Numbered from the stretch's first letter, positions 17,764 to 38,851 are shown. The stretch: DNA of 64,000 bases from an uncultured Spirochaetaceae bacterium (GCA_944392965.1 CALXYM010000001.1:248001-312000), one strand, 5' to 3'. Notes: a model not told the origin generated them from the letters alone. Program-made: numbers and translations.

Positions 17764-19518
17764 ATGCAGAGGTATATATGCCATCATTGTGATAACTTAG
17801 AGTGTACTTCAAGCATATGTCCTGTTTGTGGAGGGAAAACAGATTCCGTAAATACTCAAATTTATTGGTGTAAAACCTGTAATGTTCCATCGTATTCAAA
17901 GACTTGTGATTGTTGTCATAGTATTTGTGATTATATTTCAACAGATATAAGGCCCGTTTTTGCAGAAGAAAGACTATTAATTGAAATAATATTAGGAATG
18001 CCAATGCAATTCGTAGAATCCTCTGTTTGGGCTGCTGGCGGAGGGGTTTATTTTATAGATGGGCAGAAAGTAAAAATTAATTTAGTGAAAGCAATTCATG
18101 AAAATGAACCAGCTATTGTTGCATCAAAACTTAAAGAGTACGAAGAATTAAACAAGAAATATTCAAATTATTCTGATTCAAAATGGTTAAAAGGTGCTAT
18201 AGAAGTAAATAAGACACATATTCAGAGTATTGAATATGAAGCTATGTCATTTATTCGTAATGAAGCGGGTAATGTTAATCTTTCTTCTATGTTTGTATCG
18301 TTTAGTTGTGGAAAAGATTCAACCGTAACGAGTAACCTTGTTCGTGAAGCTTTAGGTACGGAGAAGATAATTCATATTTATGGCGATACTACATTAGAGT
18401 ATCCAGATTCATTTTCATATTTATCTAGATTTAAAAAAGAACATCCCAAAATGCCTTTAATTGTTTCTAAAACAAAAGATCAGGATTTTTTGGATTTATG
18501 TATGTATTTAGGACCTCCTAGCAGAGTATTAAGATGGTGTTGTACTGTTTTTAAAACAGGTTCAATTAATATCCTTTTAGAGACGTTATTCAAAGGAAAA
18601 TCTCAAGTCTTGGCATTCCATGGGATAAGAAGAGCAGAGTCCTCATCAAGAAGAAAATACGATAGAGTTTCTGTTAGTCCTAAAATTACTAAACAAGTTG
18701 TGTTGCAGCCTATTTTAGATTGGATGGATTTTGATGTATGGCTATACATACTTTCAAGAAATCTAGATTTCAATGATGCATATAAAAAAGGATTTTCACG
18801 TGTTGGGTGTTGGTGTTGCCCAAACAATAGTAACTGGGCTGAATACTTAGCTAAGATTTATATGCCAGAACAGTCAATGGCATTCACGAATCTTTTATAT
18901 GATTTTGCAAAAAAAGTAGGGAAAAAGGATTGGAAAGAGTATATAGATTCAGGAAACTGGAAAGCTCGACAAGGTGGAAACGGTTTAGAAAATAGCAAAA
19001 GTGCGATACTTCAAGTTACAGAGTGTGTAAATAATGAAAATGCTTATAACTTTGAGTTAACTAGGCCAATAACAGATGCACTATATGAGCTGTTTAAACC
19101 TTTTGGAATTATCGATAAAACAATGGGAAATCAGAGACTTGGAGAAGTTTATGTCCTTAATAGGTCTGATTCAATGCCTCTATTGAAGATTGCAGGAAAG
19201 CTTGGACAGAATCGACTTAGACTATCTATATTGAATTATAGAGGTCCTTTTAGGGCTAGAAATAATGTCGAATCGTATTTGAAAGCACAAATAACAAAAT
19301 ATCAGACTTGTATTGGGTGTTATTCTTGCCCAAGCATATGTAAGCATTCTGCAATACGAGTTGAAAATAAAAAGCCTGGAGGAGTAGATCCATCAACTAT
19401 AAATTATCAGATAGATGAAAAAAAATGTGTTGGATGTTTAGAATGTATTTTACATCATAATAATGGTTGTTACATAAAGAAAGTTGTAAGGGTAAGCAAT
19501 GATAAACTACAGATTTAA
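17764..19518 (+). CDS. sspD: PAPS-reductase-family protein of a DNA phosphorothioation system (SspD/DndC-like), with zinc ribbons and ferredoxin tail
   Basis: 584-aa member of the PAPS reductase/adenine nucleotide alpha-hydrolase family. DndC/SspD proteins of this family activate DNA for sulfur insertion into the backbone. The N-terminus has several CxxC knuckles (about 6-57), like zinc ribbons. The PP-loop SCGKDS is at 181-186. Cysteines C259, C260, C349, C351 and C352 (RWCC, GCWCC) fit the Fe-S ligands known in DndC. Residues about 516-575 carry two ferredoxin-type cysteine groups (CIGCYSCPSIC, CVGCLEC). ATG 17764 follows GGGGGGAGAAAGT. The stop overlaps the next gene by 20 bases. The symbol is by family and context. 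Confidence 0.8.
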   Translation: MQRYICHHCDNLECTSSICPVCGGKTDSVNTQIYWCKTCNVPSYSKTCDCCHSICDYISTDIRPVFAEERLLIEIILGMPMQFVESSVWAAGGGVYFIDGQKVKINLVKAIHENEPAIVASKLKEYEELNKKYSNYSDSKWLKGAIEVNKTHIQSIEYEAMSFIRNEAGNVNLSSMFVSFSCGKDSTVTSNLVREALGTEKIIHIYGDTTLEYPDSFSYLSRFKKEHPKMPLIVSKTKDQDFLDLCMYLGPPSRVLRWCCTVFKTGSINILLETLFKGKSQVLAFHGIRRAESSSRRKYDRVSVSPKITKQVVLQPILDWMDFDVWLYILSRNLDFNDAYKKGFSRVGCWCCPNNSNWAEYLAKIYMPEQSMAFTNLLYDFAKKVGKKDWKEYIDSGNWKARQGGNGLENSKSAILQVTECVNNENAYNFELTRPITDALYELFKPFGIIDKTMGNQRLGEVYVLNRSDSMPLLKIAGKLGQNRLRLSILNYRGPFRARNNVESYLKAQITKYQTCIGCYSCPSICKHSAIRVENKKPGGVDPSTINYQIDEKKCVGCLECILHHNNGCYIKKVVRVSNDKLQI

Positions 19519-20356
19519 GGGTAATGAAAGCTTTTATATAAGGACAGGGTGGTTTGAGAAAGCCCTCACTGTCATGAATGAAAACAAGGATGTTAATGTT
19601 TTTTCATCTGCAAACGGAGTTTCATATTTAGGTGTGGGTTCTAATATGGTATCTTCAATAAGGTATTGGATGATTGCGGCAGGATTACTAGAAAAACAAA
19701 AAAATATTGCGACTGATCTTTCTAAGCTAATTTATGAAATAGATCCTTATTTTGAAGATATCAATACATGGTGGATAATTCATTATAATCTTGCTACAAA
19801 TCTTATTGATTGTCCTGTGAATTATGCATTTTTCAATTTAGTTGACAGAAAAAAAGCAACTAGGGAAGAGTTTGCTAAGATAATATATTCTGCAATAAAA
19901 GATAAATGTGGAATTGAAGCAAAAGAGGATTATATTAAATCTGATTTGTCCGTTTGTATAAGATCTTATTCCCCTGATGAAATAATAGAAGAATGGAAAA
20001 CTCCAGAAGATAACTATACGTGTCCACTTTGGCAATTGGGACTTTTAAGAAAAATAGGGCAAAATGAGGTGGTAAAAACTGAGCCTAGTTTAGACGCAAT
20101 AAATTATAAAGTTGTGTATCTATCATTGTTGCGTGCATTCGAAGATGTTAATGGGTTTACAATTGATGATGCTTTAAGTAAAGAGAAAGGTCCTGGGGTA
20201 ATTTTTAACATATCACGCTCAACAATGATTTCTTTGATAGAGAAGATGCAGAAACAGGGACTTGTTTCTTTTAATAGAACAGCAGGTTTGAATACTGTAT
20301 ATTTTGAAAAGAAAAAGAAAGATAATGAAGTCGTAAAGGATATACTAAATGAATAA
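19499..20356 (+). CDS. sspB: DUF4007 protein, SspB-like
   Basis: 285-aa DUF4007 protein. SspB of the single-strand phosphorothioation system belongs to this type and is reported to nick DNA. The family opening is clear: FKGNESFYIRTGWFEKAL (about 5-22), then YLGVGSNMVSSIRYWM (about 41-56) and WWIIHYNLATN (about 87-97). The C-terminal segment looks like a winged helix (VVYLSLLRAF ... LIEKMQKQGLVSF). ATG 19499 overlaps the sspD-like gene by 20 bases, and the stop overlaps the ATPase gene by 8 bases, so the genes are translationally coupled. A second protein of the same layout lies at 33737. Confidence 0.8.
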   Translation: MINYRFKGNESFYIRTGWFEKALTVMNENKDVNVFSSANGVSYLGVGSNMVSSIRYWMIAAGLLEKQKNIATDLSKLIYEIDPYFEDINTWWIIHYNLATNLIDCPVNYAFFNLVDRKKATREEFAKIIYSAIKDKCGIEAKEDYIKSDLSVCIRSYSPDEIIEEWKTPEDNYTCPLWQLGLLRKIGQNEVVKTEPSLDAINYKVVYLSLLRAFEDVNGFTIDDALSKEKGPGVIFNISRSTMISLIEKMQKQGLVSFNRTAGLNTVYFEKKKKDNEVVKDILNE

Positions 20357-23300
20357 TTATAGTGAAATAATTGGGATTAATTCGATATTTCAAAATTCTA
20401 TAAATCTAGAAATTGATTTAAATGACGAGAATAAAATAAAACAATATATACCTACTCCAGAGGGTTGTTTAATTCTCAACTATTATTTGAATTCCATATT
20501 AGATAATACTTTCAGAAACCAATATTCCCATTCAACTACTTTAGTTGGCCCTTATGGAAAAGGAAAATCGTTCCTTCTTTTAGTACTTCTTTTTATCATA
20601 TCTCATGATATAAACAATAGGACATGGAAAAATCTCAGAAATAGGATAGCTGAAATAAACAAAGACACTGCTTTTATGATGGATGAGATCAGTAAGAGAA
20701 AAATCAAGCTTATGCCCGTTCTTCTTAATAATGATTATGAAGATTTGAAACAAGTTTTTCTTGTTGCTCTTTCTTCAGCTCTTAATGAATTTGGAATAAA
20801 AGAACTAATGCCAGAAACATCATTCGATGTTGCATTGAAAATTATCAATAAATGGGAGAGTAATTCATCTTTTATAAAAGATATAAACTTGATATTACAA
20901 GCAGAAAACATATCTTTGAAAGACTTAAAAAAAAGACTAAGAAATAAAGAAAAATATTTTTACAACCTATTTGTGAAGCTATACAACTCTGTAATTCCAG
21001 GCCAGGAATTTAATCCTTTCATAAGTGATTCAATAGTATCAATTCTAAAAAGTGTAGCAACTTCTTTAAAAACTCAGACAGATTTTAGCGGCATATATTT
21101 TGTATTTGATGAATTTAGTAAATTCCTTGATTCGGAGACTCCATATTTTTCAGAAGAATTAAAGACTCTTCAGGATATTTTTGAACTTTGTAATAGAACA
21201 GAAGAAAAATCCCAGATTCATATTTGTTGTGTAATTCATAAACCTCTTTCTTTCTATGCAAATAGTAAAGGCCAAGCAAAAAGAAATTCTTTTAAGACTA
21301 TCGAAGGTAGAGTGAAAGAAATACTTTTTGCTAGAAGCATAAATGAAAATTTTCAGCTGATTGAAAAAGCTATTATTAAGAAGAAAGCTTTTAATAATCT
21401 TTGGAAAGATATCTATGCTACACATAAAGAATATTATCAGAAACTGAAAGTAGAAAGTATCTGTACGGTTTTTGATTTAGATAAAATTATTAAAGGATGC
21501 TTTCCTTTGAACCCGTATTCCGTTTATTCTCTTATTCAGCTATCTGAAAAAGTTGCACAGAATGAAAGAACTCTTTTTTCTTTTATTTCAGATAAAGACA
21601 AAAACAGTCTAAATTCTTTTGTTGGTAGTCAAAAAGAAGGACTATTGAATGTTGATCGAATATATGATTATTTTTCTCCTATTCTTGCCTCAACAGATGA
21701 CGAACTGATAAAAAGGATTTATTACAAGACAGAAGCATGTTTATCTACAGTAAGTGAAGAAGAACAAAAGAAAACTATCAAGGCATTGGCTGTTTCCACT
21801 ATGATAGATGATCCTGTTATTGTTCCTCCAATAGCTAGAATTATTGCTCTTTCATTAGCAATGCCAGAAGGGAAAGTTGTAAAAGCGATAGAAGAATTAG
21901 AGAGAAATAGTTTTATTAGAAAAAGCTCTTTTAACGGCTTTCTATCTTTTTCAGGAGCGAATAGTGCTGCCATCAACGAAAAGATAAATAATCTTATTCA
22001 AGATTCAAATATGGATTTTAGACTTTCTGACATTTTAGAAACTGTAACGGAAGAAAGGTTTGCTCTTCCTAGAAAGTATAATGCAAAAATGAAAATGACG
22101 CGATTTTATAAAGTTATTTATATTTCTGCTGATACATTCTTGAAGCTTGGTAGCCTTTCTGCGTTAGATGCTAATAATGTTGCAGATGGACTTTTAATAA
22201 AAATGTTTTTTTGTGAGGAAAATGAGAATCTTGAACAAAAAGTAAGGGAAAAGTATTCGACATTTAATTCTAAAACTTCTATAGTTTTGCTTGCAAAGCA
22301 TTCGATATCGAGAAAAGGACAGCTTCTGCTGAAAGAGTTTCGTGCTTTAGAAGAAGTTGAAAGAATCTTTAAAGATGATCTTGTATCTAAAGAAATTAAG
22401 TTAATGCGAGCTGAGTTGAAAAATGATTTAGCAAAGATTTTTAAAGATTATTTTAATGATGTTATAAGGATACCAGAGAATACGGGTTCTCTTTCCGAAG
22501 AAATGTCTACTGAAATGTTTAATGTATTTACCAATACCCCAATTATTAATAATGAACTTCTTAATAAGAATAACCTTTCTGCTACTTACAGTAAAGCAAG
22601 AAAAAACGTGATTAAGGTATTGCTAAATAGAGAGTCCATTAATCAGCACTATAAATATAGTTCACCTGAGGTTACGATTTACAACTCAATCTTTAGGGGT
22701 AACAAAGGTGAATGTTTTGAATCCATTAAAGATTGCTTTGATGTGATAAATAATAAATTGCTTTCTACACATAGTGATCAGGCTACTACCGTAAAATCTT
22801 TAGTGGAGCCATTAAGGCAACAACCATATGGATTACGGAAAGGGGTAATTCCACTATTAGTCGCAAAAGTCCTAGGAGATATGCCTGAAAACTACTTCAT
22901 GCTATTACTTGATAGAAAAGAAATACCTTTAAATGAAAGTAATTTGGAAAAAGCAATAGAATCTCAAGATAATAAGTATAAGTTTAAGATTATTAGAAAC
23001 CTTGCAGAAAAAAGGGCATATATATCTGAGCTTATGACTATATTCGAACTTGTACCCTCCTCAAATTTTGGAGAGGATATTATAAAGCTTATTAATGCTA
23101 TTAAAAATTATTGTCTTAATCTTCCGGGGCTTGTTAAAGCCTCAAATGAGAAATCAAACATACTTAAATTGAATGAAATCTCTATAAATTTCGTGTCTAG
23201 TTTTTTAAAGATGGATATTAATCCATATGAGAAGATATTCGATCAGCTTCCATGCATTAATACAAAAAAGAAAATGTCTTATGCTGAAACAGTTGAAATA

Positions 23301-23744
23301 GTCCGTAAGATAAAAAATGAACTCGATAATGTTCTTATAAAATTTGAAAATAGCATTTTGGAAAAAATTCTTAATGTAGGATGTTTTTCTTATGCTTCAT
23401 TTGTTTCTCTTCTTATTGAGAAGGAGGAATTTGCTCATATCGGAAATGTAAGTAAAGAAGAGTTGATAGATATGTTATCTGTCAAATTACTTCATTTGCA
23501 TATTAGAGATTGGAATTATGATAGAACAGAAGACCTTATAGACAGTGTAAGCGATTTACTTTCTAGTTTTGATGATAGTTTCGTAACAGCTGATTCATTT
23601 ACTCCATTAAGTGAAGATGTAGAAAGCCCATTTGAAGAGAGCTTGATGAATATGCTAAGAGACAATCTAGACTCATTTGGAGATGCTTTATCTAAGGTAC
23701 AGAAACTAAATGTGTTATATAAACTAATTAAGGAGATACAGTGA
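20349..23744 (+). CDS. sspC: Large P-loop ATPase, SspC-like
   Basis: 1131-aa ATPase that always travels with the DUF4007 and PAPS-reductase genes in such clusters. Walker A GPYGKGKS is at 67-74 and Walker B YFVFDEFSKF has D254 and E255. After the motor comes a long helical region without motifs I recognise. SspC proteins are ATPases needed for phosphorothioation, and this assignment rests on context plus the P-loop. It is not the SMC-like DndD. The ATG overlaps the sspB-like stop, and its own TGA overlaps the GTG of the next gene. The motif spacing is nearly identical to that of the ATPase at 34556. Confidence 0.7.
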   Translation: MNNYSEIIGINSIFQNSINLEIDLNDENKIKQYIPTPEGCLILNYYLNSILDNTFRNQYSHSTTLVGPYGKGKSFLLLVLLFIISHDINNRTWKNLRNRIAEINKDTAFMMDEISKRKIKLMPVLLNNDYEDLKQVFLVALSSALNEFGIKELMPETSFDVALKIINKWESNSSFIKDINLILQAENISLKDLKKRLRNKEKYFYNLFVKLYNSVIPGQEFNPFISDSIVSILKSVATSLKTQTDFSGIYFVFDEFSKFLDSETPYFSEELKTLQDIFELCNRTEEKSQIHICCVIHKPLSFYANSKGQAKRNSFKTIEGRVKEILFARSINENFQLIEKAIIKKKAFNNLWKDIYATHKEYYQKLKVESICTVFDLDKIIKGCFPLNPYSVYSLIQLSEKVAQNERTLFSFISDKDKNSLNSFVGSQKEGLLNVDRIYDYFSPILASTDDELIKRIYYKTEACLSTVSEEEQKKTIKALAVSTMIDDPVIVPPIARIIALSLAMPEGKVVKAIEELERNSFIRKSSFNGFLSFSGANSAAINEKINNLIQDSNMDFRLSDILETVTEERFALPRKYNAKMKMTRFYKVIYISADTFLKLGSLSALDANNVADGLLIKMFFCEENENLEQKVREKYSTFNSKTSIVLLAKHSISRKGQLLLKEFRALEEVERIFKDDLVSKEIKLMRAELKNDLAKIFKDYFNDVIRIPENTGSLSEEMSTEMFNVFTNTPIINNELLNKNNLSATYSKARKNVIKVLLNRESINQHYKYSSPEVTIYNSIFRGNKGECFESIKDCFDVINNKLLSTHSDQATTVKSLVEPLRQQPYGLRKGVIPLLVAKVLGDMPENYFMLLLDRKEIPLNESNLEKAIESQDNKYKFKIIRNLAEKRAYISELMTIFELVPSSNFGEDIIKLINAIKNYCLNLPGLVKASNEKSNILKLNEISINFVSSFLKMDINPYEKIFDQLPCINTKKKMSYAETVEIVRKIKNELDNVLIKFENSILEKILNVGCFSYASFVSLLIEKEEFAHIGNVSKEELIDMLSVKLLHLHIRDWNYDRTEDLIDSVSDLLSSFDDSFVTADSFTPLSEDVESPFEESLMNMLRDNLDSFGDALSKVQKLNVLYKLIKEIQ

Positions 23745-24871
23745 TTTACTTAGACAATGCAGCTACAACATATCCAAAGTCTGAGGTCTTCTATTCTGCT
23801 ATAGATGATGCCAATAGAAATCATGCATTTAATATAGGGAGGAGTAGTTATAATTCTGCTCGAGAATGTTTTAGTATTATGGAGGAAACGCGTAGCCTAT
23901 TGGGAGCTATTGTTTCTGCAGATAAGTCAAATGTCTATTTTGCATCCTCTGCCACAGAAGCTTTGAATCAAATTATTTATGGTCTTGATTTGAATAAAGG
24001 TGACAATGTTTATGTTTCTCCTTTTGAACACAATGCGATAATGAGGCCTCTTCATCTGTTAGAAGAAAAAATTGGAATAAGCGTGAAAGTTATTCCCTTT
24101 AATGACGAAACATGGGCGGTAGATGAGATAAAATGTATCAATGCTTTTGCTCTTTACCCACCCAAAGCGGTCTTTCTTTCTCAAGTTAGCAATGTTACTG
24201 GTTATTGCCTTCCTTATCAGAGTATTTTTGAACTTTCTAAAACATTTGGGTCTGTTAATATTTTAGATGCATCTCAAGGTTTTGCTGTACTACCAATAAA
24301 GAAGACAACAAGCATAGACTTCATAGTATTTGCGGGGCATAAGTCACTTTATGCAGGATTTGGTATCGCAGGTTTTATTAAGACAGGAAATGTGGTGTTA
24401 AATATAGTAAAAGCCGGTGGAACGGGGGCAGATAGCCTTAATTTAAATATGCCTGATAACGGCTATTCTCGCTATGAAGCAGGTAGTCCTAATATTGTAG
24501 CTGTGTATGGACTAAAAGCTTCACTTGAATGGCATAAAAAGGTCGATATAGAAAAGAAGGAAAGAGAGCTTACAGGGATATTATTATCTGAATTAGAAGG
24601 CTTAAATAATATTATAGTATTTAAGCCGGAAAGTTCAGCTAGAATGCTAGGTATCGTATCTTTTGCCATCGAAGGGTATTTATCTGATGATGTTGGGATC
24701 ATACTTTCGGATGAATTTGATATCGCGGTAAGAACAGGATATCATTGTGCTCCATTAGTACATAATTTTATCAAAAGCATTGATTATGGTGGTACAATAA
24801 GAGTTAGTTTTGGTGCTTTTAACTCAGAAAAAGACATATCAGAACTGATTAAAGCTTTGAAAACGTTGTAG
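23741..24871 (+). CDS. sspA: Cysteine desulfurase, SspA/DndA-like
   Basis: 376-aa class V aminotransferase-fold, PLP-dependent enzyme that takes sulfur from cysteine as a protein persulfide. It starts with the family signature YLDNAATTYPK. The PLP lysine is K201 in FAGHKSLY, and the persulfide cysteine is C336 in RTGYHCAPLVH. These motifs are closer to the SufS-like desulfurase-family branch than to IscS. GTG at 23741 overlaps the previous TGA. Within the operon it should feed sulfur to the SspD-like protein. Full length, no damage seen. Confidence 0.88.
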   Translation: MIYLDNAATTYPKSEVFYSAIDDANRNHAFNIGRSSYNSARECFSIMEETRSLLGAIVSADKSNVYFASSATEALNQIIYGLDLNKGDNVYVSPFEHNAIMRPLHLLEEKIGISVKVIPFNDETWAVDEIKCINAFALYPPKAVFLSQVSNVTGYCLPYQSIFELSKTFGSVNILDASQGFAVLPIKKTTSIDFIVFAGHKSLYAGFGIAGFIKTGNVVLNIVKAGGTGADSLNLNMPDNGYSRYEAGSPNIVAVYGLKASLEWHKKVDIEKKERELTGILLSELEGLNNIIVFKPESSARMLGIVSFAIEGYLSDDVGIILSDEFDIAVRTGYHCAPLVHNFIKSIDYGGTIRVSFGAFNSEKDISELIKALKTL

Positions 24872-24881
24872 GGGCGCACAA

Positions 24882-26609
24882 GTGAGAGAGTTTGTAGAAT
24901 ATCTGAATACCCTTCATAGAATGGGCGGTAATAACAGTAATGCTACGGCTGAGGCCAATTATAATAGCAAAAATAAAGAGTATGCTGATAAAATCCGAGT
25001 TGACGATGATCAGATAGTACAAGAAGTAATAGAAGCTCTGAAGATAAACCATAAGGTTCTCCTAACAGGATTTGCAGGAGATGGAAAAACTACAATAGCA
25101 AATATCGTTGCAGGAAAAATTCTTACTGAAGTAAGAACTGTTCTTTCTATTCCAACCCTAAATAGGCCTCTTGTTGCTATCAAAGACTTAAGTGAAATCG
25201 GAGATGATGAAGACTTTTTATATGATGACTTGATTTCTGACAATCAGGATTTGATGATTGTATCTAACACTGGAACAATAAGAAAACGGCTTCTTGGACT
25301 TTATGAAAGACTAAATAAAAAATACCAACTAGGAAGTAAGCCTCAATTCGATGGTAAGATTTTAAGTGGTATTGAAGGGATGGAAAATTATAAAGGAAAA
25401 ATTAAAATAGGGGACGATTTATCTATTATAACATTTAACCTTGTAAAGAAAGATAACTTATCTTTAGCTGAAAAAATATTTAGAAAAATTCTCGATCATC
25501 CAGATTGGGATTCTGCCTCCGAAAAAGAAAGGAGGTCTGTTCCATATATAAATAGACAGTTATTGCGCTCTGATGATTATCATGCACTAAAGCAGATGAT
25601 GCAGATTTATAGAAGAATTTATGAATACGGACACAGGCTTACAGTTAGAAATTTATTAGAGCATTTCTCTTACACCATAACAAAGAATAAGAAAAGTAAT
25701 GAAGAGTGGAATGGAGATATAGATGACCTCTTTTTCAGTAATTTCTTTTCGAAAAATGCGGTATTAAATGGAATGACGGGAGCTATTGTTGTTAACGAAG
25801 CCCATTTCGGAATAGATATCGATGCCAACTGGAAAAGGAGAATTTGGCTTAAAACTAATGAAGAAAAATACAAAATCCGTTTTTCTAATTCTAAAATTAT
25901 GGAATTATATGAAAACAGCCGTGCAAATTTTCTGAGAAGGCGATCTCAAAATGAGAAAAGACTCATTATAATTAGGATGTTATATTTCCTTAATCTTGAG
26001 CTTGAAGATTCTGAGTGTGCTTGGCGGTTTTTGACTTCTTTTCTTAGCTCTCCTGCATTCTATTATTTTGATAAAATTCAGAAGAATGGAAAACTTAGTG
26101 GTAGGGATAGTCTTTATATTGCTTCAAAAATTATGCATGTTATAAGGGAATATTTTTTGGGAATGAAAATTCCGGAATCTTCTATAAGTCCTTCTTCTAA
26201 ACAGAATATTTACATAGCTATGTCAAGAAATACTTCAAAAATAAAACAAACTGCACAAGTCATACTTGATGAGTTTGAGTGGAAAGGGGATAAGGCATTA
26301 AATGTTTATACAGATTATAGGGGGATTCGGCAGTTTTGCTTGAAAATAGCTGAGTACGGAGAAGAGGAAATTGAGTTACCTTTACCGTTTTTGGACTATC
26401 TACTTTCTTGTCATTTAGGTGTTATGTCAGATCCTGCATTTGCTAGCTATAGGAAACGATTAGATAAGATAAAGGATGGTATTCTAAAAAATAGGCAAGA
26501 AAATGATCATACAAGAATAAAAATAGCATATTTAGGGAGTAAACATGATCCGCATGTCATAGAGTTTATCGAAGAAGAAGGCGAAATCTTTTGTGTGGAG
26601 GTTGATTGA
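24882..26609 (+). CDS. DptF-like P-loop protein of phosphorothioation-dependent restriction
   Basis: 575-aa ATPase resembling DptF (DndF), a component of the restriction half of DNA phosphorothioation systems. Walker A GFAGDGKTT is at 63-71, followed by an NTPase-like core (LMIVSNTGTIRKRLL at about 124-138). The C-terminal half is helical and unassigned. The start is GTG at 24882, ten bases after the desulfurase stop. Its TGA overlaps the ATG of the next gene. Length and the F-G-H gene order support the call. The published SspFGH module is the closest described setting for such genes next to sspBCD. Confidence 0.7.
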   Translation: MREFVEYLNTLHRMGGNNSNATAEANYNSKNKEYADKIRVDDDQIVQEVIEALKINHKVLLTGFAGDGKTTIANIVAGKILTEVRTVLSIPTLNRPLVAIKDLSEIGDDEDFLYDDLISDNQDLMIVSNTGTIRKRLLGLYERLNKKYQLGSKPQFDGKILSGIEGMENYKGKIKIGDDLSIITFNLVKKDNLSLAEKIFRKILDHPDWDSASEKERRSVPYINRQLLRSDDYHALKQMMQIYRRIYEYGHRLTVRNLLEHFSYTITKNKKSNEEWNGDIDDLFFSNFFSKNAVLNGMTGAIVVNEAHFGIDIDANWKRRIWLKTNEEKYKIRFSNSKIMELYENSRANFLRRRSQNEKRLIIIRMLYFLNLELEDSECAWRFLTSFLSSPAFYYFDKIQKNGKLSGRDSLYIASKIMHVIREYFLGMKIPESSISPSSKQNIYIAMSRNTSKIKQTAQVILDEFEWKGDKALNVYTDYRGIRQFCLKIAEYGEEEIELPLPFLDYLLSCHLGVMSDPAFASYRKRLDKIKDGILKNRQENDHTRIKIAYLGSKHDPHVIEFIEEEGEIFCVEVD

Positions 26610-28180
26610 TGGCAGATATATTCCCTTATAAGGTTGGTCTTGATGATAAAGAAACCAATGTTGCAAGCAAACTTTTTGGGCATAGATTTTTTGGAGATCA
26701 AGGAAAGGTTGAGCTTCTTTCGGAGTTTCTATTGATCTGCATTTCTAAGAAAGATATAAAAGAAGAAGATCATAGGCATCTTTGTGATATTCCTTTTCCT
26801 TCCATTGATAATCTGGAAGCTATAGAAGAAATCAAATATAAGCCGAAATATAATGTTTTATTGAAATTATTCGCTCTATATGATCACAAAACAGGCGGTA
26901 CTGAGGTTAGAGGATTTGAAGATGCATATAATTCTATAATTAATAGAGAAAAGAGCAAAATACAAAACATGAATGGAAATGCTGAAGATAAGGAAAAAAG
27001 AGCTAAGGTAAGCATTCTTCAATCTTTATATAAAGGCTTTCAAGAAGTTGGAAAGAATAGGGATTGGTGTGCTCAGAGCTTTCTTCCTATATCGGATGCT
27101 CTTTTAGCAGATGAGAGCATTTGGAAAAGGAAAAACAATGCTATTTCAGATAAAGAAGGTGCTATTCGTGCTTTAGATCATAATAGTCGTCTGTTTTATG
27201 CAAGAGGTGGGGAAGTTATTTATTTACAGCTTTTATCTGCTTTGAATCACACAAAAACCGATGTTGAAAAATGGTTAAAAGATGAAAGTAATCCTTTTAA
27301 GGATATGAATCTGTCTGACGATGAGAAAGATCCTGCAAAATTGAAAGACTGTTTAAATAATGCATTTAATAATATTTATAAAAATAAGAGTCCTGAATTT
27401 TTTAATACTTATGTAAAAGGTTTGAAATTAGATGGCTATAAAGATGAAGAAGGCGAAAAAAAAGTTGGATTTATTCCAAGCAGGACTTGGGGGTATGGTT
27501 ATGTTTTCGCTGTGGAACTTTCAAGATTCTTTAGATCTTCTTTTGACATCGTAGAAACTATGAACCATTTAGAGTCTGCTTGTGTTCTACAGGAAATAAG
27601 AACTATGCTAGGAGAAAGTGCTAATGATCAGAAAAAACGATATCCTTTACTTCCTGTCGTATCTCCAACTTGTAGAAATTTAATTCATAAAATGGTTTCT
27701 AATGATGCCTTTAAATATTGTCAGCAAATTATAAAAGATGCTCTAGATAATGAAGCTGAAGAAGAAAGAAAAAAAGATCTCAAGGATCATAAGTTCAAAT
27801 CTACAGATTATGTTAGATACGGGCATAAGCTATTTCAAAAAATAGCAAAATCTATAGAGTTTGTTCTTCCTCCAAAAGGTAATTTGGAACACTTTGTGCT
27901 TACAAAAGATCTTATTACTTACATAGTTTCAACAACACTAGTTCCAGACGGTCTAGTGTTACCTTTTGATACTTTCTTAAACGATATAAAGATACGTTAT
28001 GGTATTGTGTTAGATAGTGATGGATTTACAGAAGCAAATATGATGATGGGAAAAAAACAGGATATTAATGAAGCTGGTATCTCCGATTGGTTTATTCAGA
28101 TGTTGGAAGAATGTGATTACTACGTGCGTTTATCTGACTCACTTTCTCTTGTGAAAAACACAAATGTAAAAGGAATGTAA
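26609..28180 (+). CDS. DptG-like protein of phosphorothioation-dependent restriction
   Basis: 523-aa protein in the DptG (DndG) position between the F-like and H-like genes. I see no P-loop or nuclease motif; it is rich in charged helices. The start MADIFPYKVGLDD at 26609 uses the ATG that overlaps the F-like stop (TGATG); a TTG one codon earlier is less likely. The assignment rests mostly on gene order, length and the partners on both sides. Confidence 0.6.
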   Translation: MADIFPYKVGLDDKETNVASKLFGHRFFGDQGKVELLSEFLLICISKKDIKEEDHRHLCDIPFPSIDNLEAIEEIKYKPKYNVLLKLFALYDHKTGGTEVRGFEDAYNSIINREKSKIQNMNGNAEDKEKRAKVSILQSLYKGFQEVGKNRDWCAQSFLPISDALLADESIWKRKNNAISDKEGAIRALDHNSRLFYARGGEVIYLQLLSALNHTKTDVEKWLKDESNPFKDMNLSDDEKDPAKLKDCLNNAFNNIYKNKSPEFFNTYVKGLKLDGYKDEEGEKKVGFIPSRTWGYGYVFAVELSRFFRSSFDIVETMNHLESACVLQEIRTMLGESANDQKKRYPLLPVVSPTCRNLIHKMVSNDAFKYCQQIIKDALDNEAEEERKKDLKDHKFKSTDYVRYGHKLFQKIAKSIEFVLPPKGNLEHFVLTKDLITYIVSTTLVPDGLVLPFDTFLNDIKIRYGIVLDSDGFTEANMMMGKKQDINEAGISDWFIQMLEECDYYVRLSDSLSLVKNTNVKGM

Positions 28181-28181
28181 T

Positions 28182-31100
28182 ATGAAAAGTCTTATTGTTT
28201 CATCTCTTTGTAGTTATATAGAAGAAAAAGTAAAAGATGCTTATTCTGAAAATATCATACAGTTTAGGATTCCAGCAAAAACATATTCCATAAGTGTTGT
28301 ATTTGATTTACTGGATGAGATAGATAAGTTATGTTCTTCTGTAATTAATTGCAAAGGGGAAATAAAGATAGCAAAGCAGGCTATTATATATTATCGAAAG
28401 AATGCAAATGATAAAGATTTAGAAAAAGTGGAGGCTGCGCTTAAAAACCATCCATCATGGGAGGATAAGCATGGTAATCTTACTGCATACCGTAATAAAA
28501 TAAATAGTACACAAAGTGGTTATAAAATTCTCTTAATATTAGTAGGTGATGATCTGATTGATGATCAGGCAAGTCTTTCGCACTTCTTAGATTGTGGTAT
28601 TCAAACATTATGGGAGAATGTTTTAGATAGAAGTTTTAAGGCATGGGTGAATTTAGTTATATCTCAATATAAGTATGATGAAGATGATAAGAACGATATT
28701 GACAATTCTGTAAAACTTCTTCAGACAGCTTTACGATATTCAGATTTGCCTAGGATTGATGATTTCTTAAGGGGGTTAACCGATTCTAGCAATAAGCTTT
28801 CTAGAAATATCGGAAATAATTTTGATAAGCTTGGGTTACAGATAATAGATGTTTCCTCTCAAACAAATGTTGATAAGAGTTTAACAATAACAAGTAAGGC
28901 TAGGTCTTATTACAACAGGAATGCTTCTCTTGAAACAATCAGTACAGCTATTAAGAAAATAGAGAGGCTTATTGAGAAAGTCGAAAAAGATATAAATTTA
29001 GATGATAAGAAAATTAAATTTCTTCAAGATAAGGATAAATATCCAGAATTTGATTCTCCTTCAGAGTATCTGAACACATGTAAGAGCATTGTAAGTGGAT
29101 CAGCGAGTGATGAAGAAAGGAAAAAGTTTATCAAATCTGATGCTGCAACTTTTGTATTAAAAGTTTTAGGATTTAAGCCAGAGAAAGAAGACAAATCAAC
29201 CATAAAGGTTATTTCGGGAATGCCTTTTACTGCCGTTTTACATGCTGTATGGATTTCCTTGCATGATTTTTTAGTCGAAAACTCGAAGGAAATAAAATCA
29301 AGAGAAGTTGGAATTGAAGAAATAGAAATTGTTTCGAAGGAATTTACGCATAATTATGCTTCTTCAGATCCAAAAGATAAACAAAATAATGAGGCTGTGA
29401 TTCAAGAGCTTATTCGGCCATACTTAGGTGGAGTTGATCAGCTGATTAAAAATACTTTTGCTTCTTTAAAAAATGATATCGGAGGCCTATTTTCTAACGT
29501 AACGATTAACTCTCATATTTGCCCAGCAGATAATGATCACTTGAGTACTCCTTTTAAAGCAACAGCTACACCGTCTTTGCTTTTTTCTGTAACAGTAAGG
29601 GCTCTAGAATTAGGCAGGACATATTCATTTAAGATACCATTTAAGAAAAGTTCCCCAATTAATTATTCTAGGGAATTGATTTTAAAAGAAAAGGATAGAA
29701 TATCCACATCGCACTTTTCTACAACTCATTTTATACCAGTATTTTCTTTTTCAAAATTCAATGAGTTCTTTGATAAAACGGATTCTGAATCTGATGATTT
29801 TTTTGAAGGCCTTATATGGGACTCCGAGTATGGTATTAATGCCTCTAATATCTTAGATTTAAACGCAGATGATAATATAAAAAATAAATTTTACTCTTTA
29901 AGAGCATGCTATGAGAACTTTATAAATTGTGCTGCGACAAATGGTATTTATTTTGCTATTGTCAATGAAAAGTCTATAGGGTTTTGTAAAGAATATCAAA
30001 ATATTTTAAAAGAGCTTTCTTCTGAAGAGAGATTAAATCAGCAATCGTTAAGAATAAGAATGCTAAAAGCATACTGGATTATGGATAAGAAAGACACAGA
30101 AGAAGAACAGCTTTCTAATAAAAATTTTAAGGCAGGATGTTTATCTATTCTACATCCTGCAATGATTGAAATGCTTTATGCACAGATTTGCTATATAAGA
30201 GATAATGTTGCTGCATTACTTCGAATTGGGAAAGATGAAGGAGACCCAGAAAAGCGGATTACGGAAGATCAATGGCAAAGGATTGAAGACTTGTCCACAA
30301 TTCAAGCTCCTATTCCATGTGTTCTTGACGATGATAAGTTAAAAACTCAAACTAAAGGTTCTGATCTTCTTTTCAAGATTGGATCTATAAAAGATGCAAA
30401 ATCAGATGATATGCCTTTATCTGTAACATTTGAAGATGAAATGGATTTAGATGCAGATGAGATTTCTGATTCAGATTTAACTAGAATGACAGACGAATCA
30501 AAACTCATATGCAATTTGTTAAGTGATTATATAGACTCTTATGGTTTTGCTTCTGATAGTCTGAAAATTGCTATCTTTATGCCAGTAAACATCCAAGCAA
30601 TAATGGCAGCTATCATTTCTCTCATTAAGACATCGATTTATCCTCCAGTATCTAAAAATGAAAGTAAGAGGTATCCTTATTATCCATTTAAGTTGAATAT
30701 TTCATTTTATTCAGATCCGGAAGACGAAGGAAGAATTGGTCTTTGGATCTCTAAATTCAATAACTATTTCAATGAAAAGACCCTTAATGATAACGATTTT
30801 GCCAATGTGGATTTAACAATTGGATATCGCATGATTAAGACAGGTAGCGATAATATCATTACAAAGGGAATAGAAATGGATTTTCAAGCAGATATTTCTA
30901 TTCTTTATGAATCTCATGATGCTTCAATTTGGGAGTTTAATAGGGGTTTGCAGACATCACTTATTAAGATACCTCAAATTGATGAACGTAAAGTTGTGAT
31001 GAAATTCCCTATGCTTGAAAAACTTTATCCCAAACGTCCTATAAGTGCAAATATAGGAAATTCTGCCTACCGGTCTAAGTTGATTTCTAACAGGCAATTC

Positions 31101-33737
31101 AAGACATATGATTCTTATTTGAAACTTTTATATTCAGTTGATCATGATGTTGAAGTTGGTGCTAATGAATCTATTGTTGTTGCAGAACAGTATGACTTTT
31201 CAAAGTGGTTAACCCTATTGAATTGGTGCTTGGATAGATCTGAAAGAGTAATTGCAATTGGTGGAGAAATTGATAAAGATCTTATTCTTAATGCAAACAA
31301 CTTTAACAAAAATGAGAGTAAAAACAATTCTGTTGATATCGTAGGATTTGGTTCTGGCGTTGGTGCTAATGCAAGCCTAAATTATATAGTAGCGTCAAGG
31401 CTTTATGAAAATAATTTTGCAGAAGAAAATATACGTAGGGTATTTCAAGATACATTCTTGAGTATTTCAGCATCTGAGAGTAAAGCTATAGTTTCGCAGT
31501 TGTTAGCCGATAGTAAAGAAATGGCGGATTTATCATTGGTAAGGACGTTGAGCTGTTATAACTATTACTCTAATAATTATCTTGGTTATGCGATGATAAG
31601 GCATGTCCTAAAGCCTGAAGATGGAGAGACCCCATTTTGTGATGTTGTCATTTCCTTAGATTCTTATAGGCATTGGTTTTCCTCTAATGATATCCGTGCT
31701 GATTTATTGTGGGTTGTTGCATATAAACAGACAGAAAAATTATTAGATGGTAGCATAAAACATACATTAAAACTGAAACTTACCGTAATAGAGTCGAAAT
31801 TAGGGTATGATGCAGATGAAAAATATCTAGATAAAGCATATAAACAAATACAATCTACGATAAAAATACTTCAAAGATATTTTATGCCCGCAACCCAAAT
31901 AGATGATAAATACGATTCTAGATATTGGTGGATGCAGCTTCATCGCATAGTCTCATCAAATACATATATTAAGAAAGATGAAGAAGCTACGGATACATTA
32001 GAAGCCCTCGAATACTTAGCAGAAGGAGATTTCTCTATTGATTGGGAGTCTTATATTTTTTCTTTCAATCAGACTTCTTCTTCAAAAACAATAGAAAAGA
32101 TAGAGGTCTCAGATGACGAAGGCTCTGCCGTTACAGCAGTTATCATGCATCCTTGTGGAATTAAAGACTTAATGAGTCATAATGTTACAGAGTCTTTCAA
32201 AGAATTTATGGAAGGAATCAATCAAAATAATATTCCATATAAGGTTAGTATGGGAGAGAAGGAGTTTAAAAAGGCAAAAGAAGAAGAACAAAGACAGAAG
32301 AGGATGGAATTATCAGGTGAGCCGTTACAAGCCTTTGGTTTTAAAGTAGTAGAGAAGAAAACTGAAGATTCTGGGGTGGATGATTCTTTATATTTTGCTG
32401 AAAATGATGAGAGTTTTGGTAATGTTGAAGAGTATTCTTTTGCTGGACCAGAGTTAGCTAATGTTCCAGAAGAAACAATATCATTTGAGTTTAGTGAGCA
32501 CACAGGAGAAGAATTCCAAGAAAAAATGAAGATGGTGGAAAAAAATTGGGGAAAAGAAGAAAGTGCAAGTAATACTAATCAAATAAAAGCGGTAGCATCT
32601 GAAATTGACGATAATTTAATTCTTATAGGAAAAACATTAAGAGGAGAAGAACCTGTTTATTGGAATATTGCTAGTAGGTCTAATTTGCCTAATAGACATA
32701 TGTTTATTTTGGGAACATCCGGAACCGGAAAGAGCTATGCTATTAAGGCCATCATGGGAGAATTATCAAAAAAACTTCAATCTTCTTTAATAGTCGATTA
32801 TACCGATGGTTTCATAGATGATGGACTAAGTGGGATAGAGAGATTTGTAAGTTCTCAATATTATGTAAAAAAAGGAGATCGTCTTCCTATTAATCCATTT
32901 AAGTTGCAGGAAGAGAATTATGATGACCCATATGATGTTGGTAAAAGAGTTTCTGATGTTTTCAGTAGAATATATCAAATAGGTGATAACCAAAAAAGTA
33001 TACTTGCAGATACAATTGAAAGGGGACTATTTGATAATGATGTTTATACTATGGATATGCTCCTGAATGACTTGGAGAAAGGTTCACAGGAAAAAGGTCC
33101 GAAAAAAACGTCATTTATTACATTACTTACAAAAATAAAACCATTCTGCAAATCTAATCCTTTTATTATTCCTGAGGAAGGACGAGATCCATGGAAAGAT
33201 ATTTTCTTCAATTATGAAAATAATAAGCAAATAACTATTTTCCAGTTAAGGAATTTAACAGGAGATATTAAAATTGCAGTAGCAGAATTTGTATTATGGG
33301 ATTTATGGTATTATATTGTGGCTCTAGGTGCAAAGCAAGAAAGATTACATACTATCATTTTAGATGAGATACAAAATTTAAACATCAATAATGATGATGC
33401 ACCTGTGGTTAAATATCTCACGGAAGGCAGAAAATTTGGATTTGGTGTTATTGCAGCATCTCAAGGTATAACTGGTCTTGGTGGACTAAAATCAAAAGGG
33501 CTAGATGCATTACTTAATGCAGGAACTATGTTAATATTCCAGCCCAAATCGAACGACCAGTCAGACTTTGCAAAAATGCTTAATCAAATAGATAGTTCGA
33601 AGACAAAAGACGAGTGGAACATTCAGCTTGGACGATTGAAAAAAGGTGAATGCATATATGTATCTAGTGATGAGAACAGCGGTAAAAGAAAGGCGAGAGT
33701 AATAAAAATCACTAGTATGGAAGAGAGAGGATTCTAA
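28182..33737 (+). CDS. DptH-like HerA/FtsK-type ATPase of phosphorothioation-dependent restriction
   Basis: 1851-aa protein. The C-terminal 350 residues form a HerA/FtsK-like translocase: Walker A GTSGTGKS (1511-1518), VDYTDGF (about 1540), Walker B IILDEIQNL (D1728, E1729), and the sensor-like GFGVIAASQG (about 1752). The long N-terminal region (1-1480) has no motif I know, with an acidic Glu-rich linker around 1370-1480. Size and architecture match DptH (DndH), which acts with DptF and DptG on DNA lacking phosphorothioate. ATG 28182 is one base after the G-like stop. Its TAA overlaps the next ATG (TAATG), so the gene that follows is coupled to it. Confidence 0.72.
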   Translation: MKSLIVSSLCSYIEEKVKDAYSENIIQFRIPAKTYSISVVFDLLDEIDKLCSSVINCKGEIKIAKQAIIYYRKNANDKDLEKVEAALKNHPSWEDKHGNLTAYRNKINSTQSGYKILLILVGDDLIDDQASLSHFLDCGIQTLWENVLDRSFKAWVNLVISQYKYDEDDKNDIDNSVKLLQTALRYSDLPRIDDFLRGLTDSSNKLSRNIGNNFDKLGLQIIDVSSQTNVDKSLTITSKARSYYNRNASLETISTAIKKIERLIEKVEKDINLDDKKIKFLQDKDKYPEFDSPSEYLNTCKSIVSGSASDEERKKFIKSDAATFVLKVLGFKPEKEDKSTIKVISGMPFTAVLHAVWISLHDFLVENSKEIKSREVGIEEIEIVSKEFTHNYASSDPKDKQNNEAVIQELIRPYLGGVDQLIKNTFASLKNDIGGLFSNVTINSHICPADNDHLSTPFKATATPSLLFSVTVRALELGRTYSFKIPFKKSSPINYSRELILKEKDRISTSHFSTTHFIPVFSFSKFNEFFDKTDSESDDFFEGLIWDSEYGINASNILDLNADDNIKNKFYSLRACYENFINCAATNGIYFAIVNEKSIGFCKEYQNILKELSSEERLNQQSLRIRMLKAYWIMDKKDTEEEQLSNKNFKAGCLSILHPAMIEMLYAQICYIRDNVAALLRIGKDEGDPEKRITEDQWQRIEDLSTIQAPIPCVLDDDKLKTQTKGSDLLFKIGSIKDAKSDDMPLSVTFEDEMDLDADEISDSDLTRMTDESKLICNLLSDYIDSYGFASDSLKIAIFMPVNIQAIMAAIISLIKTSIYPPVSKNESKRYPYYPFKLNISFYSDPEDEGRIGLWISKFNNYFNEKTLNDNDFANVDLTIGYRMIKTGSDNIITKGIEMDFQADISILYESHDASIWEFNRGLQTSLIKIPQIDERKVVMKFPMLEKLYPKRPISANIGNSAYRSKLISNRQFKTYDSYLKLLYSVDHDVEVGANESIVVAEQYDFSKWLTLLNWCLDRSERVIAIGGEIDKDLILNANNFNKNESKNNSVDIVGFGSGVGANASLNYIVASRLYENNFAEENIRRVFQDTFLSISASESKAIVSQLLADSKEMADLSLVRTLSCYNYYSNNYLGYAMIRHVLKPEDGETPFCDVVISLDSYRHWFSSNDIRADLLWVVAYKQTEKLLDGSIKHTLKLKLTVIESKLGYDADEKYLDKAYKQIQSTIKILQRYFMPATQIDDKYDSRYWWMQLHRIVSSNTYIKKDEEATDTLEALEYLAEGDFSIDWESYIFSFNQTSSSKTIEKIEVSDDEGSAVTAVIMHPCGIKDLMSHNVTESFKEFMEGINQNNIPYKVSMGEKEFKKAKEEEQRQKRMELSGEPLQAFGFKVVEKKTEDSGVDDSLYFAENDESFGNVEEYSFAGPELANVPEETISFEFSEHTGEEFQEKMKMVEKNWGKEESASNTNQIKAVASEIDDNLILIGKTLRGEEPVYWNIASRSNLPNRHMFILGTSGTGKSYAIKAIMGELSKKLQSSLIVDYTDGFIDDGLSGIERFVSSQYYVKKGDRLPINPFKLQEENYDDPYDVGKRVSDVFSRIYQIGDNQKSILADTIERGLFDNDVYTMDMLLNDLEKGSQEKGPKKTSFITLLTKIKPFCKSNPFIIPEEGRDPWKDIFFNYENNKQITIFQLRNLTGDIKIAVAEFVLWDLWYYIVALGAKQERLHTIILDEIQNLNINNDDAPVVKYLTEGRKFGFGVIAASQGITGLGGLKSKGLDALLNAGTMLIFQPKSNDQSDFAKMLNQIDSSKTKDEWNIQLGRLKKGECIYVSSDENSGKRKARVIKITSMEERGF

Positions 33738-34540
33738 TGGCTTCACTGGCTTTATCATTTGCAAATTCATTTGCTCCAGAGCGTATATATTTAGCACAAA
33801 TGCTTCAGTTCTTGTCAAAGATGCCGCAAAAGATGACACAAGGAGATATTTCAAAACTTACAGGTATCCCTATAGGTGCTTCTTCTGGTAAAGTTGCTCC
33901 TACATTAAATTATTTGAAAGGTATGTGGGCAATTGAAAGCACCCCAGATGATAATTGGTATAAGCTCACACCCTTTGGGAAAATTGTATTAAATACAGAT
34001 ATCCTATTTTCTCAAATTGCTACTCAGATAGTTTGCCATGCAAATATGTGTGACAAAACAGATGGTGCAATTTTGTACAACAAATTATTTACTCAGATTT
34101 CTGTCAATAAAAAATATCAAAGGGAAGCGCTTGTTAAAAGTTTTGCAAACAATGTAGATTCTCATTTCACTGCGCTTTGTGGGATGTATACATCGGCAGA
34201 ATCCTTTAAGAAAAGCAGAATTTTAGATACGGACAAAAAAGAAATATGGTTTTATGGTTGCCCTAAATATCCAGAATACACAGTAGTGTATGGCGCATTA
34301 ATCTCGCATCTTGTAAATAAGTATTTTGCAGATAAAGGTCAAATTAGTGTTGATGATTTCATTCAAAAAACAGAAATATGTAAAATATTAGGATGGAAAG
34401 AAGATGAGTTTGCTTCTTTGATGGAATCTCTTTCCGCCAAGGGATATATTAAATTAGATAAACATATTTTACCTGTAGTATTTAGTATGCTAAAAGATGA
34501 AGGGCAGTGTTGGGAAGAAATTTATATTGATCAAATTTAA
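33737..34540 (+). CDS. Second DUF4007-like protein (SspB paralogue candidate)
   Basis: 267-aa protein with the same plan as the SspB-like protein at 19499. An N-terminal segment FANSFAPERIYLAQML aligns with the FxGxESF opening. IPIGASSGKVAPTLNYLKGM aligns with LGVGSNMVSSIRYWM, and LTPFGKIVL follows. The end VVYGALISHLV...VDDF...LMESLSAKGYIKL aligns with VVYLSLLRAF...IDDA...LIEKMQKQGLVSF. It is distant, so DUF4007-like is an inference by eye. Its ATG overlaps the DptH-like stop and it precedes another large ATPase, mirroring the SspB-SspC pair. Role unknown; a second DNA-recognition or nicking unit is one option. Confidence 0.6.
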   Translation: MASLALSFANSFAPERIYLAQMLQFLSKMPQKMTQGDISKLTGIPIGASSGKVAPTLNYLKGMWAIESTPDDNWYKLTPFGKIVLNTDILFSQIATQIVCHANMCDKTDGAILYNKLFTQISVNKKYQREALVKSFANNVDSHFTALCGMYTSAESFKKSRILDTDKKEIWFYGCPKYPEYTVVYGALISHLVNKYFADKGQISVDDFIQKTEICKILGWKEDEFASLMESLSAKGYIKLDKHILPVVFSMLKDEGQCWEEIYIDQI

Positions 34541-34555
34541 AGATAAGGAAACGTC

Positions 34556-37500: not shown

Positions 37501-38851
37501 TCAATTACTTCCTGATTATATTGTATGTCTAAATACTTATAATCAGCTTATAGAGAGTAGTATTTCTATTCCAAATATAATCTTAGATGATATCATTCTA
37601 TTACGCACAAAAACAGGTTCTCTTTGTTCTCTCAATAAAAAATGGAAAGCAGAAGGAAGTATTATTCATGCTAATATTAATCAGCTTTGTAACCAGCGTA
37701 AGCCTATTGATGAGGTTATAAATGTATTCTTTACTTATATAAAACTTTATAATCAAACAATAGGGCAATCAAAAGCTGCACGTTATGAGAACGATATTGA
37801 TGATTATAAGGACGTGATAGATAATACAAAAATTTATATCAAAAATAATATTGACGGTTGGATTAATTCTAATGATCCGGTAGTTAATTTTTCTGAATAC
37901 AGACAGAAATTTTCAGCTTATGTTTCTCTTATAAAACAGTTAGAAAGTCTTTCTCTCAAAGATGAAGCAGATAAAGTACGAAAAGCCTACGATGGCGCAA
38001 GTATTACAGTAAAGGCTATCAATGAGTTTAATAAGAATAAGCAGTTGTATGAGAATCAGTATTCTAGTATAGAGAAGAATGTTAAATACGGACTTGTAGC
38101 TTATAATCTTGCTGTCGGCTGTAAGCAGGATATCGATATTTTGATGGGGCGGTTAGAAAGTTTTTCAGATTCATATGTTGGCCTCCCTCAATACTTGAAT
38201 TTTAATGGTATAAAAGCGCGTCTTATTGGTCTAAAAAACATAACAGAAACAAAATTGCAAGAGATGAAAGAAAAAGCCGATTCGATTCCTTCTTTAAAAT
38301 GTGATCGAATTTGTGAAATTCAGGATTCGGAAAGTGTTGTGAATTCTGTTTTGCAGTTCTACCAGAATGAAGAAGGGAAGCCTGAGTATCAAGAATATAC
38401 TTTAGCAAAGCATGCAAAAGCAGAGATTGAACTATTAAAGAGAGCTTTCCTAGTGTTATCGCAAAAAGTTTCTTCTGATGCTATGATTGAATCAACAATT
38501 AATGCATATAATGATAAGTTCGAGGAATTAGATTTTATTCCGATTCCTTATAAATCCGTTTTAAATAGTTTCAAGGGGATGGCTTATTATGATCTTCAAC
38601 AGAAGAGTACAGAATGGAAAGATGAACAGATTAGGAGATATAATTGTGCTAATACTATGGATGATTTAATTACATTTCAGGCTATGTTAAATAATCAACC
38701 CGATTATCTTTCTGAATCCGATAAACGAGAAATTGAAGAGCTTAGAATGGTTGTTTCATCAAAAATATCGAAAAGGAAAGTAGAATTTTTGGTTTCTCAA
38801 TATAGGCAGCTAAACGAAGATGAGCAAAAAGATTTTTTATCGAGAATTTGA
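34556..38851 (+). CDS. Second very large P-loop ATPase (SspC-like architecture)
   Basis: 1431-aa ATPase at the end of the operon. Walker A GYGAGKT is at 86-92 and Walker B LLIVFDELGKYM has D271 and E272. The lysine-to-aspartate distance is 180 residues, against 181 in the SspC-like protein at 20349, and both share VFDE(F/L)(S/G)K. The rest is long and helical with coiled-coil-like stretches (about 1180-1431). BrxC/PglY-type ATPases share this general plan, so BrxC-like is an alternative name. It starts 15 bases after the second DUF4007-like gene behind AAGGAAA. No PAPS reductase or desulfurase accompanies this second pair. Confidence 0.65.
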   Translation: MKYGVDVKFEGGRYFAGAIDIDWYLCDLDNARNVSEAYMFHGKQYHSVNNVSQSGGYKVTDSITMTEILLENLCKQDNRLILSIAGYGAGKTHLAVALSMLFSGIGGNQQEILNKIKNIDSNAGIRIGNEIFRDERPYLVIPINGMRNSGLADLFFDSAEKVLELHQVSKIALTRFRPQFNALKQQVMYYNGPEVDKALRIAGISSRNDFAKEMDVYNYDVYDRIVAALEIVGVQYYVPAVTGQLKDLIIALAEELCGKGKPFRGLLIVFDELGKYMSFSAANEGIAGSGIMQQLYEGVQGVRKDVPVLFWGLSQLDLKEYQQGLANNVAANNNMNRYVTRFSNAKKYYLGTCFESLIANLIVKNSEPEGLEDPKEVGKAIKMLSKVFSAAKNYPVWTDEDKFAKIVRKGCWPLSSAAVWTLTYITSVNNILQQRSGFNIISTLFDSLNGIDIGNNKFPIKAVDLYDCGLGEEFLIAEQSSRSSSSIANECNAVINKYGQKLSANDIKVLHAIVLAEKLKAECNSEQESKQLLAFLSGLSNAIIEKSLNELFNIYNCISFNTASFLYEIHSNAATLMQFAQFIKEEINAFQQKINNKIRYATLEKQIRDSNDFGSWRERFFEDIECRFSFDHNILSWEWGYEHRIIINSYISSIRYVLNELKEEPPIHFAEQKGRMIYLVLPSFEDLGRAKTEIKALFDDYEKSVGNIVPAMVLILYDKDDKLLNVAIELDILDSLNASETKKYGNLINNRYDELYNAAFDILNELKAQRNLVYPIGSSKARFITGSQIFSKIYTSAISFYIDGFKQVNANGPNTVNEFVNILSRSGVTHNDFITLTSSEKNRAQTLLTDGWKIFDNNGNVQKYPGDKIIAELFKSFDEVLRGRKIINVYADLYAPLLAPPYGCNSTQATALVFVYYAGRQSTLEFSQNNTQVPISNLLQQKGCFSTKEKAMKKAFWHNVFVKESTRDDAKWFKLKEDWTNAQLLPDYIVCLNTYNQLIESSISIPNIILDDIILLRTKTGSLCSLNKKWKAEGSIIHANINQLCNQRKPIDEVINVFFTYIKLYNQTIGQSKAARYENDIDDYKDVIDNTKIYIKNNIDGWINSNDPVVNFSEYRQKFSAYVSLIKQLESLSLKDEADKVRKAYDGASITVKAINEFNKNKQLYENQYSSIEKNVKYGLVAYNLAVGCKQDIDILMGRLESFSDSYVGLPQYLNFNGIKARLIGLKNITETKLQEMKEKADSIPSLKCDRICEIQDSESVVNSVLQFYQNEEGKPEYQEYTLAKHAKAEIELLKRAFLVLSQKVSSDAMIESTINAYNDKFEELDFIPIPYKSVLNSFKGMAYYDLQQKSTEWKDEQIRRYNCANTMDDLITFQAMLNNQPDYLSESDKREIEELRMVVSSKISKRKVEFLVSQYRQLNEDEQKDFLSRI

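Follow-up and report, generated by a model that had tools for sequence, protein, structure and literature searches.

SspABCD makes phosphorothioate (PT) marks (PMC8092258), with SspB working as a nickase during PT formation (PMC7188994). In the SspABCD-SspFGH system of Vibrio anguillarum FF-93 the restriction cassette consists of three genes; this three-gene SspFGH damages DNA lacking PT, is harmful to a host without PT, and restricts phage without any companion pair of the kind described below (PMC8092258). How PT restriction discriminates self from foreign DNA is unsettled (discussed in PMC8092258), because few of the possible sites are PT-marked even in restriction-active cells. In type-1 BREX, a single BrxC coordinates modification and restriction, functions that mutations can uncouple (PMC13326643).

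The locus compared here with these systems lies in a 64,000-nucleotide stretch of DNA from an uncultured Spirochaetaceae bacterium (the whole stretch is called the window). ORF calling places nine genes at positions 17764–38851, all on the plus strand, in one tightly packed array with the order D-B-C-A-F-G-H-B2-C2 (Table 1). It resembles the Vibrio system in combining SspBCD with an F-G-H cassette, in the Walker A motif of F and in the FtsK/HerA-like end of H, but the published cassette works without B2 and C2, the second SspB-like and SspC-like genes that follow H here. DndFGH/DptFGH share the nuclease motif and DndH-like HerA end of H; however, DndCDE are missing from this locus (DndD and DndE are absent among the nine genes, and D matches BrxP far better than DndC in PADLOC), and no SspB/SspC-like second pair was found described for DndFGH. 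MADS mad6-7-8 is related in that the G- and H-like proteins of two loci recovered in the reverse search described below (L112 and L122) match mad7 and mad8, whereas methylation genes adjoin in L112 and B2-C2 are not nearby. The HerA/FtsK-centred BREX-related capture system (PMC12839542) likewise combines DUF4007, a BrxC-like DUF6079 ATPase and a DndH-like HerA protein, but it contains PglZ and STAND and, as described, neither SspBCD nor F-G. In the open-licence literature searched, SspFGH occurs only as three genes and the B2-C2 pair is unmentioned; thus no description was found of the nine-gene form, of which a preliminary description had known no account either, although such absence is weak evidence.

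Layout and composition of the nine-gene array

Genes overlap at five of the eight junctions (D/B by 20 nt, B/C by 8, C/A and F/G by 4 each, H/B2 by 1) and are separated by short gaps at the others (A/F 10 nt, G/H 1 nt, B2/C2 15 nt). The preliminary description, made from the sequence alone, had proposed nine genes on one strand in this order with mostly overlapping junctions and a second B-like ATG overlapping the H stop; both claims held, the latter by a single shared base.

Table 1. Genes of the array, with window coordinates and supporting matches
Gene	Coordinates	Strand	Assignment	Evidence
D	17764..19518	+	PAPS-reductase-family sulfurtransferase, C-terminal 4Fe-4S stretch (BrxP-like SspD)	Pfam PF01507 (PAPS_reduct) 1e-30
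B	19499..20356	+	SspB (DUF4007), putative modification-side DNA binder/nickase	PF13182 4e-64; SspB 8e-50
C	20349..23744	+	SspC ATPase of modification module	PADLOC SspC 3e-83; Walker A and B present
A	23741..24871	+	Class-V aminotransferase, cysteine desulfurase (SspA role)	PF00266 8e-63; SspA 2e-28
F	24882..26609	+	SspF, P-loop NTPase of restriction module	PADLOC SspF 6e-10; Walker A GFAGDGKT
G	26606..28180	+	SspG, predicted DNA-binding subunit of restriction module	PADLOC SspG 4e-10
H	28182..33737	+	SspH/DndH-type nuclease-translocase	DndH 8e-47 (C-terminal part); DUF87/HerA 6e-10
B2	33737..34540	+	Second, diverged DUF4007/SspB-like protein, putative DNA reader	DUF4007 1e-5; SspB 4e-5
C2	34556..38851	+	Second, diverged SspC/BrxC-like AAA+ ATPase, long C-terminal part	PADLOC SspC 2e-12 (N-terminal part)

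SspB, SspC, SspD and a cysteine desulfurase are found together in one operon, as is required of an SspABCD module, and D-B-C-A is therefore inferred from sequence to be an SspABCD-type phosphorothioation module; the presence of PT in the host DNA was not measured. B matches the solved SspB structure 6juf by sequence (2e-11) and keeps the invariant DPYFED motif. The best PADLOC match of D is BrxP (1e-80, compared with 2e-10 for SspD), so that the earlier label of Ssp-type phosphorothioation held with the refinement that D is the Fe-S BrxP-like form and not the short SspD. The module differs from that of the other nine-gene operons described below: the active site of A is SufS-like (RTGYHCAP) instead of IscS-like (SACN, where A is present), and C is just 18% identical to their C proteins.

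The families matched by F, G and H are, in that order, SspF, SspG and SspH/DndH, and relatives of H match SspH too. The D...ExK nuclease motif of H (residues 1172–1210) and its HerA Walker A and B motifs are kept in the nine-gene relatives. The three genes thus fall in the SspFGH/DndFGH/MADS-6-7-8 restriction family. Profile searches could have refuted the preliminary description by placing them outside the Dpt/Ssp families, and this did not happen; its label 'Dpt-type' held only in part, since SspFGH-type, with the HerA end resembling that of DndH, describes the module better. In some Desulfobacterota nine-gene operons F carries a NERD nuclease domain at its N terminus as well as two stretches of kinase domain (L094:2769-7334, L115:13811-18322 and L117:13321-17427).

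The operon forms a low-GC island (32% versus 43% outside). Values of 30–36% GC per gene and 21–26% GC3 are common to all nine genes, and the flanks on both sides have 43% GC. C2 was present in none of the 138 other genomes of the window's own family, and simple vertical inheritance in the genus is therefore unlikely. Because of this absence and the uniformly low GC and GC3, the nine-gene block seems, by inference, to have been gained as one unit. No operon promoter could be called, promoter-like sites being fewer than in shuffled sequence.

As to the surroundings, a DDE transposase remnant lies upstream of the operon at 16070–16567, near the drop in GC. Just past the operon, the minus strand (39037–40735) carries an AAA_21 (AbiEii-like) ATPase gene (39037–40302) and a small ORF, possibly another defence gene. 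PglZ and BrxL, which characterize type-4 BREX, were absent among the nine genes (Pfam, PADLOC) and among the flanking ORFs (Pfam).

Distribution of the F-G-H-B2-C2 tail

C2 was first found again, at full length and behind an H-like gene, in a genome of the same class, Spirochaeta sp. UBA2779. A two-sequence C2 alignment then served to scan 84,980 species, one genome per species. Only two peptide patterns were looked for and relatives without both were missed; the counts are thus lower bounds. Seventeen C2 loci were found, and the order F-G-H-B2-C2 occurs in every intact one with enough sequence. Where the contig extends, SspB, SspC and a D-sized gene lie upstream of F in every complete case, with or without A; at a few loci (e.g. 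L095 and L093) D was inferred from position and size, as no more than four sequences went into the D profile. L052 and L055 retain only fragments and are decayed. Together with the reverse search with SspF, the scan yielded at least 13 further F-G-H-B2-C2 operons with SspBCD upstream, in hosts from at least six phyla (Spirochaetota, Cloacimonadota, Desulfobacterota, Acidobacteriota, Kiritimatiellae and Chlorobi). The five-gene tail behind SspBCD is therefore fixed across phyla, and we take the recurrence of this gene order in unrelated phyla as more than chance.

The reverse search covered 297 genomes of the phylum of Desulfopila, another host of the operon, and found ten SspF loci. Five of these have close relatives of F, G and H, and all five (5/5) have SspBCD before and B2-C2 after them. 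In the other five, resemblance to F, G and H is weak and B2-C2 are lacking: L111 is a three-gene SspBCD-FGH system, L112 and L122 are of MADS type, and L119 and L121 are other F loci. This indicates that F-G-H with B2-C2 is a distinct subtype and does not represent all SspFGH. The F, G and H proteins of the window are just 15–17% identical to those of L111, a system whose Desulforhabdus genome also has a nine-gene operon. Within the nine-gene clade the restriction module is not complete as three genes: B2-C2 come after F-G-H without exception. On plasmids, tblastn of C2 gave only distant type-4 BREX ATPases and tblastn of SspG gave nothing; tblastn of C2 against phages and a search of viral contigs for C2 and B2 gave nothing either.

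The survey of C2 loci and the reverse search support the earlier inference that this system includes the extra pair as a constant component. It would have been refuted had the pair belonged to an unrelated system found alone; this is not the case, since all intact C2 loci with enough sequence have F-G-H directly upstream and, where the contig extends that far, SspBCD before them.

Several individual loci deserve mention. A near-identical operon is present in a Syntrophaceae MAG and a Bacteroidota MAG (L041 and L042), reflecting either recent transfer or a binning error; these records were counted once. In the nine-gene operon L114, an rve-type integrase gene lying on the other strand interrupts SspC (L114:2996-3808). 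The Desulforhabdus genome holds three F-G-H-type modules in all: the nine-gene Ssp operon (L093/L047), the three-gene Ssp system (L111) and the MADS-type locus (L122).

Identity and affiliation of B2 and C2

No Pfam or PADLOC model is specific to B2 or C2. The DUF4007 match of the window's B2 lies just below the Pfam cut-off, but PF13182 was matched by all 15 B2 proteins scanned. Sequence searches of solved structures gave nothing useful for either protein, and fold comparison was therefore used. The AlphaFold model of B2 (pLDDT 89, pTM 0.89) has SspB 6juf as its best solved match (Z 19.8, rmsd 3.6, 260 residues), FokI scoring far lower (8.7). The glutamate of the DP[YF]xE[DEN] motif is found in 20/20 modification SspB proteins (one of them, from G439, reads DRYIEE) versus 0/22 B2-type proteins, and B2 also lacks the arginine of HxTFxxR, invariant in modification SspB. 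B2 thus keeps the SspB/DUF4007 fold, as predicted by the model, without residues that are invariant in modification SspB. It may be inferred that B2 is nicking-dead; however, the loss of the glutamate is suggestive only, as the nicking residues of SspB are not known.

Walker A and B motifs of C2 are intact in all relatives. When modelled (pLDDT 78.5, pTM 0.61), its N-terminal 700 residues have BrxC as their closest match (9zll, Z 17.3 over 425 residues; 9zdx, 17.0), followed by ORC/Cdc6 (13.5), and this part is therefore predicted to adopt a BrxC/ORC-like AAA+ fold. Profile searches revealed no nuclease or other effector domain in B2 or C2, although structure prediction did not extend to the C-terminal half of C2. 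Trees separate all B2 and all C2 proteins from B and C, in clades of their own (supports 100/100 and 100), the window proteins being long branches.

To which module the pair belongs was assessed from pairwise distances over 11 systems, the window being left out; the systems are few and related, and the correlations are descriptive. C2 correlates with F, G and H at r = 0.91–0.92 and with B and C at 0.67; for B2 the corresponding values are 0.86–0.89 and 0.57–0.58, and B2 and C2 correlate with each other at 0.96. The partial correlation is 0.85 for C2 and H given C, and −0.32 for C2 and C given H. Descriptive as these values are, B2-C2 diverge along with F-G-H and not with the modification proteins B and C. 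The window itself has a different modification module (Fe-S BrxP-like D, SufS-like A and the C of 18% identity) in front of the same F-G-H-B2-C2 tail. In genome G791, B and C have their sister proteins on the Pseudanabaena type-4 BREX plasmid and the tail belongs to the nine-gene group; there, the nearest relative of B2-C2 is a different system than that of F-G-H, and the pair itself is therefore also exchangeable.

A parallel exists in type-4 BREX (brxPCZL), which shares SspB, SspC, SspD and a cysteine desulfurase with this locus but has PglZ and BrxL as effectors instead of F-G-H. Plasmids of Thermomicrobium roseum and Pseudanabaena galeata carry these six genes plus a second DUF4007 gene and a C2-like ATPase gene, with, unlike here, a small protein encoded between the two. 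The second ATPases of these plasmids are sister to C2 (tree support 100), and the SspB glutamate is missing from their second DUF4007 proteins as well. The DUF4007 tree, which has long branches, does not support grouping them with B2, so that the link rests on the ATPase tree, the shared gene order and the shared loss of the glutamate. In the section consulted of a recent type-4 BREX survey (PMC12839542), a second pair is unmentioned. The second DUF4007, small protein and C2-like ATPase (L002:13547-19047 and L038:16720-23415) bear no family name.

Possible roles of the B2-C2 pair

The reading we favour, with a probability of roughly 0.6, is that B2-C2 serve the restriction module as a DNA reader and ATPase switch of its own and license F-G-H; this action is inferred. 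D, B, C and A would put PT marks on host DNA, and F, G and H would damage DNA without such marks. B2 would bind DNA, reading the site, the mark state or both, without nicking it. C2, as an ATP-driven ORC/BrxC-like assembly, would act on this reading, loading or licensing F-G-H where DNA is unmarked and restraining them where it is marked. Most simply read, the subtype would have given modification and restriction one B-C pair each. Both the contact of B2-C2 with F-G-H and the licensing step are inferred, there being no interaction data. Since three-gene SspFGH restricts without B2-C2, dependence on such a pair is not a general property of FGH; for this clade it is inferred from linkage.

Several alternatives have to be weighed against this reading. 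B2-C2 could be a second modification target selector that borrows D and A to place PT at another sequence, as had been guessed earlier. The SspB fold of B2, the active-looking SspC-like ATPase C2 and the presence of D and A in the same operon speak for it. It is nevertheless unlikely, since the pair diverges with F-G-H rather than with B-C, stays put where a very different set takes the place of D, B, C and A, and includes a B2 without residues invariant in modification SspB; a restriction-side role fits the pair best. We also regard as improbable that FGH alone is an active cutter on which B2-C2 act as a safety brake at the host chromosome. Unrestrained SspFGH does damage host DNA without PT (PMC8092258) and BrxA inhibits the association of BrxC with DNA (PMC13326643), but three-gene SspFGH copes with PT alone, and sequence gives no way to tell a brake from a licence.

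That the pair is an independent second effector merely travelling with F-G-H is very unlikely: type-4 BREX-like operons, in which FGH is absent, do have a comparable DUF4007/ATPase pair next to PglZ-BrxL, but no effector domain was seen in B2 or C2 (the C-terminal half of the latter being left out of structure prediction), and no intact pair lacking a restriction module turned up among the loci surveyed. Recent tandem copying of B-C that left a pair without a fixed role, suggested by the same order of a B-like and then a C-like gene, can be all but excluded, as the B2 and C2 clades stand apart from B and C with 100% support across phyla; recent duplication was rejected on the basis of the trees and the recurrent linkage.

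A bolder extension of the licensing reading, to which we give slightly less than even credence, is that PT systems have split a shared B-C coordinator into a nicking and marking pair and a reading and licensing pair (B2-C2). If true, the split would apply equally to the Ssp systems that use F-G-H and to type-4 BREX, which uses PglZ-BrxL, and a whole component of two known system classes would therefore have been overlooked; type-4 BREX would gain a component that has no name so far. For the self versus foreign decision, an SspB-like reader and a BrxC-like ATPase belonging to the restriction module itself would be a concrete candidate. Because neither protein has a PADLOC or Pfam model of its own, a B2/C2 profile would be useful, letting annotation tools divide SspFGH systems into two kinds. 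The operon is also present in the complete chromosome of Desulfopila sp. IMCC35008, and the source strain is therefore perhaps obtainable.
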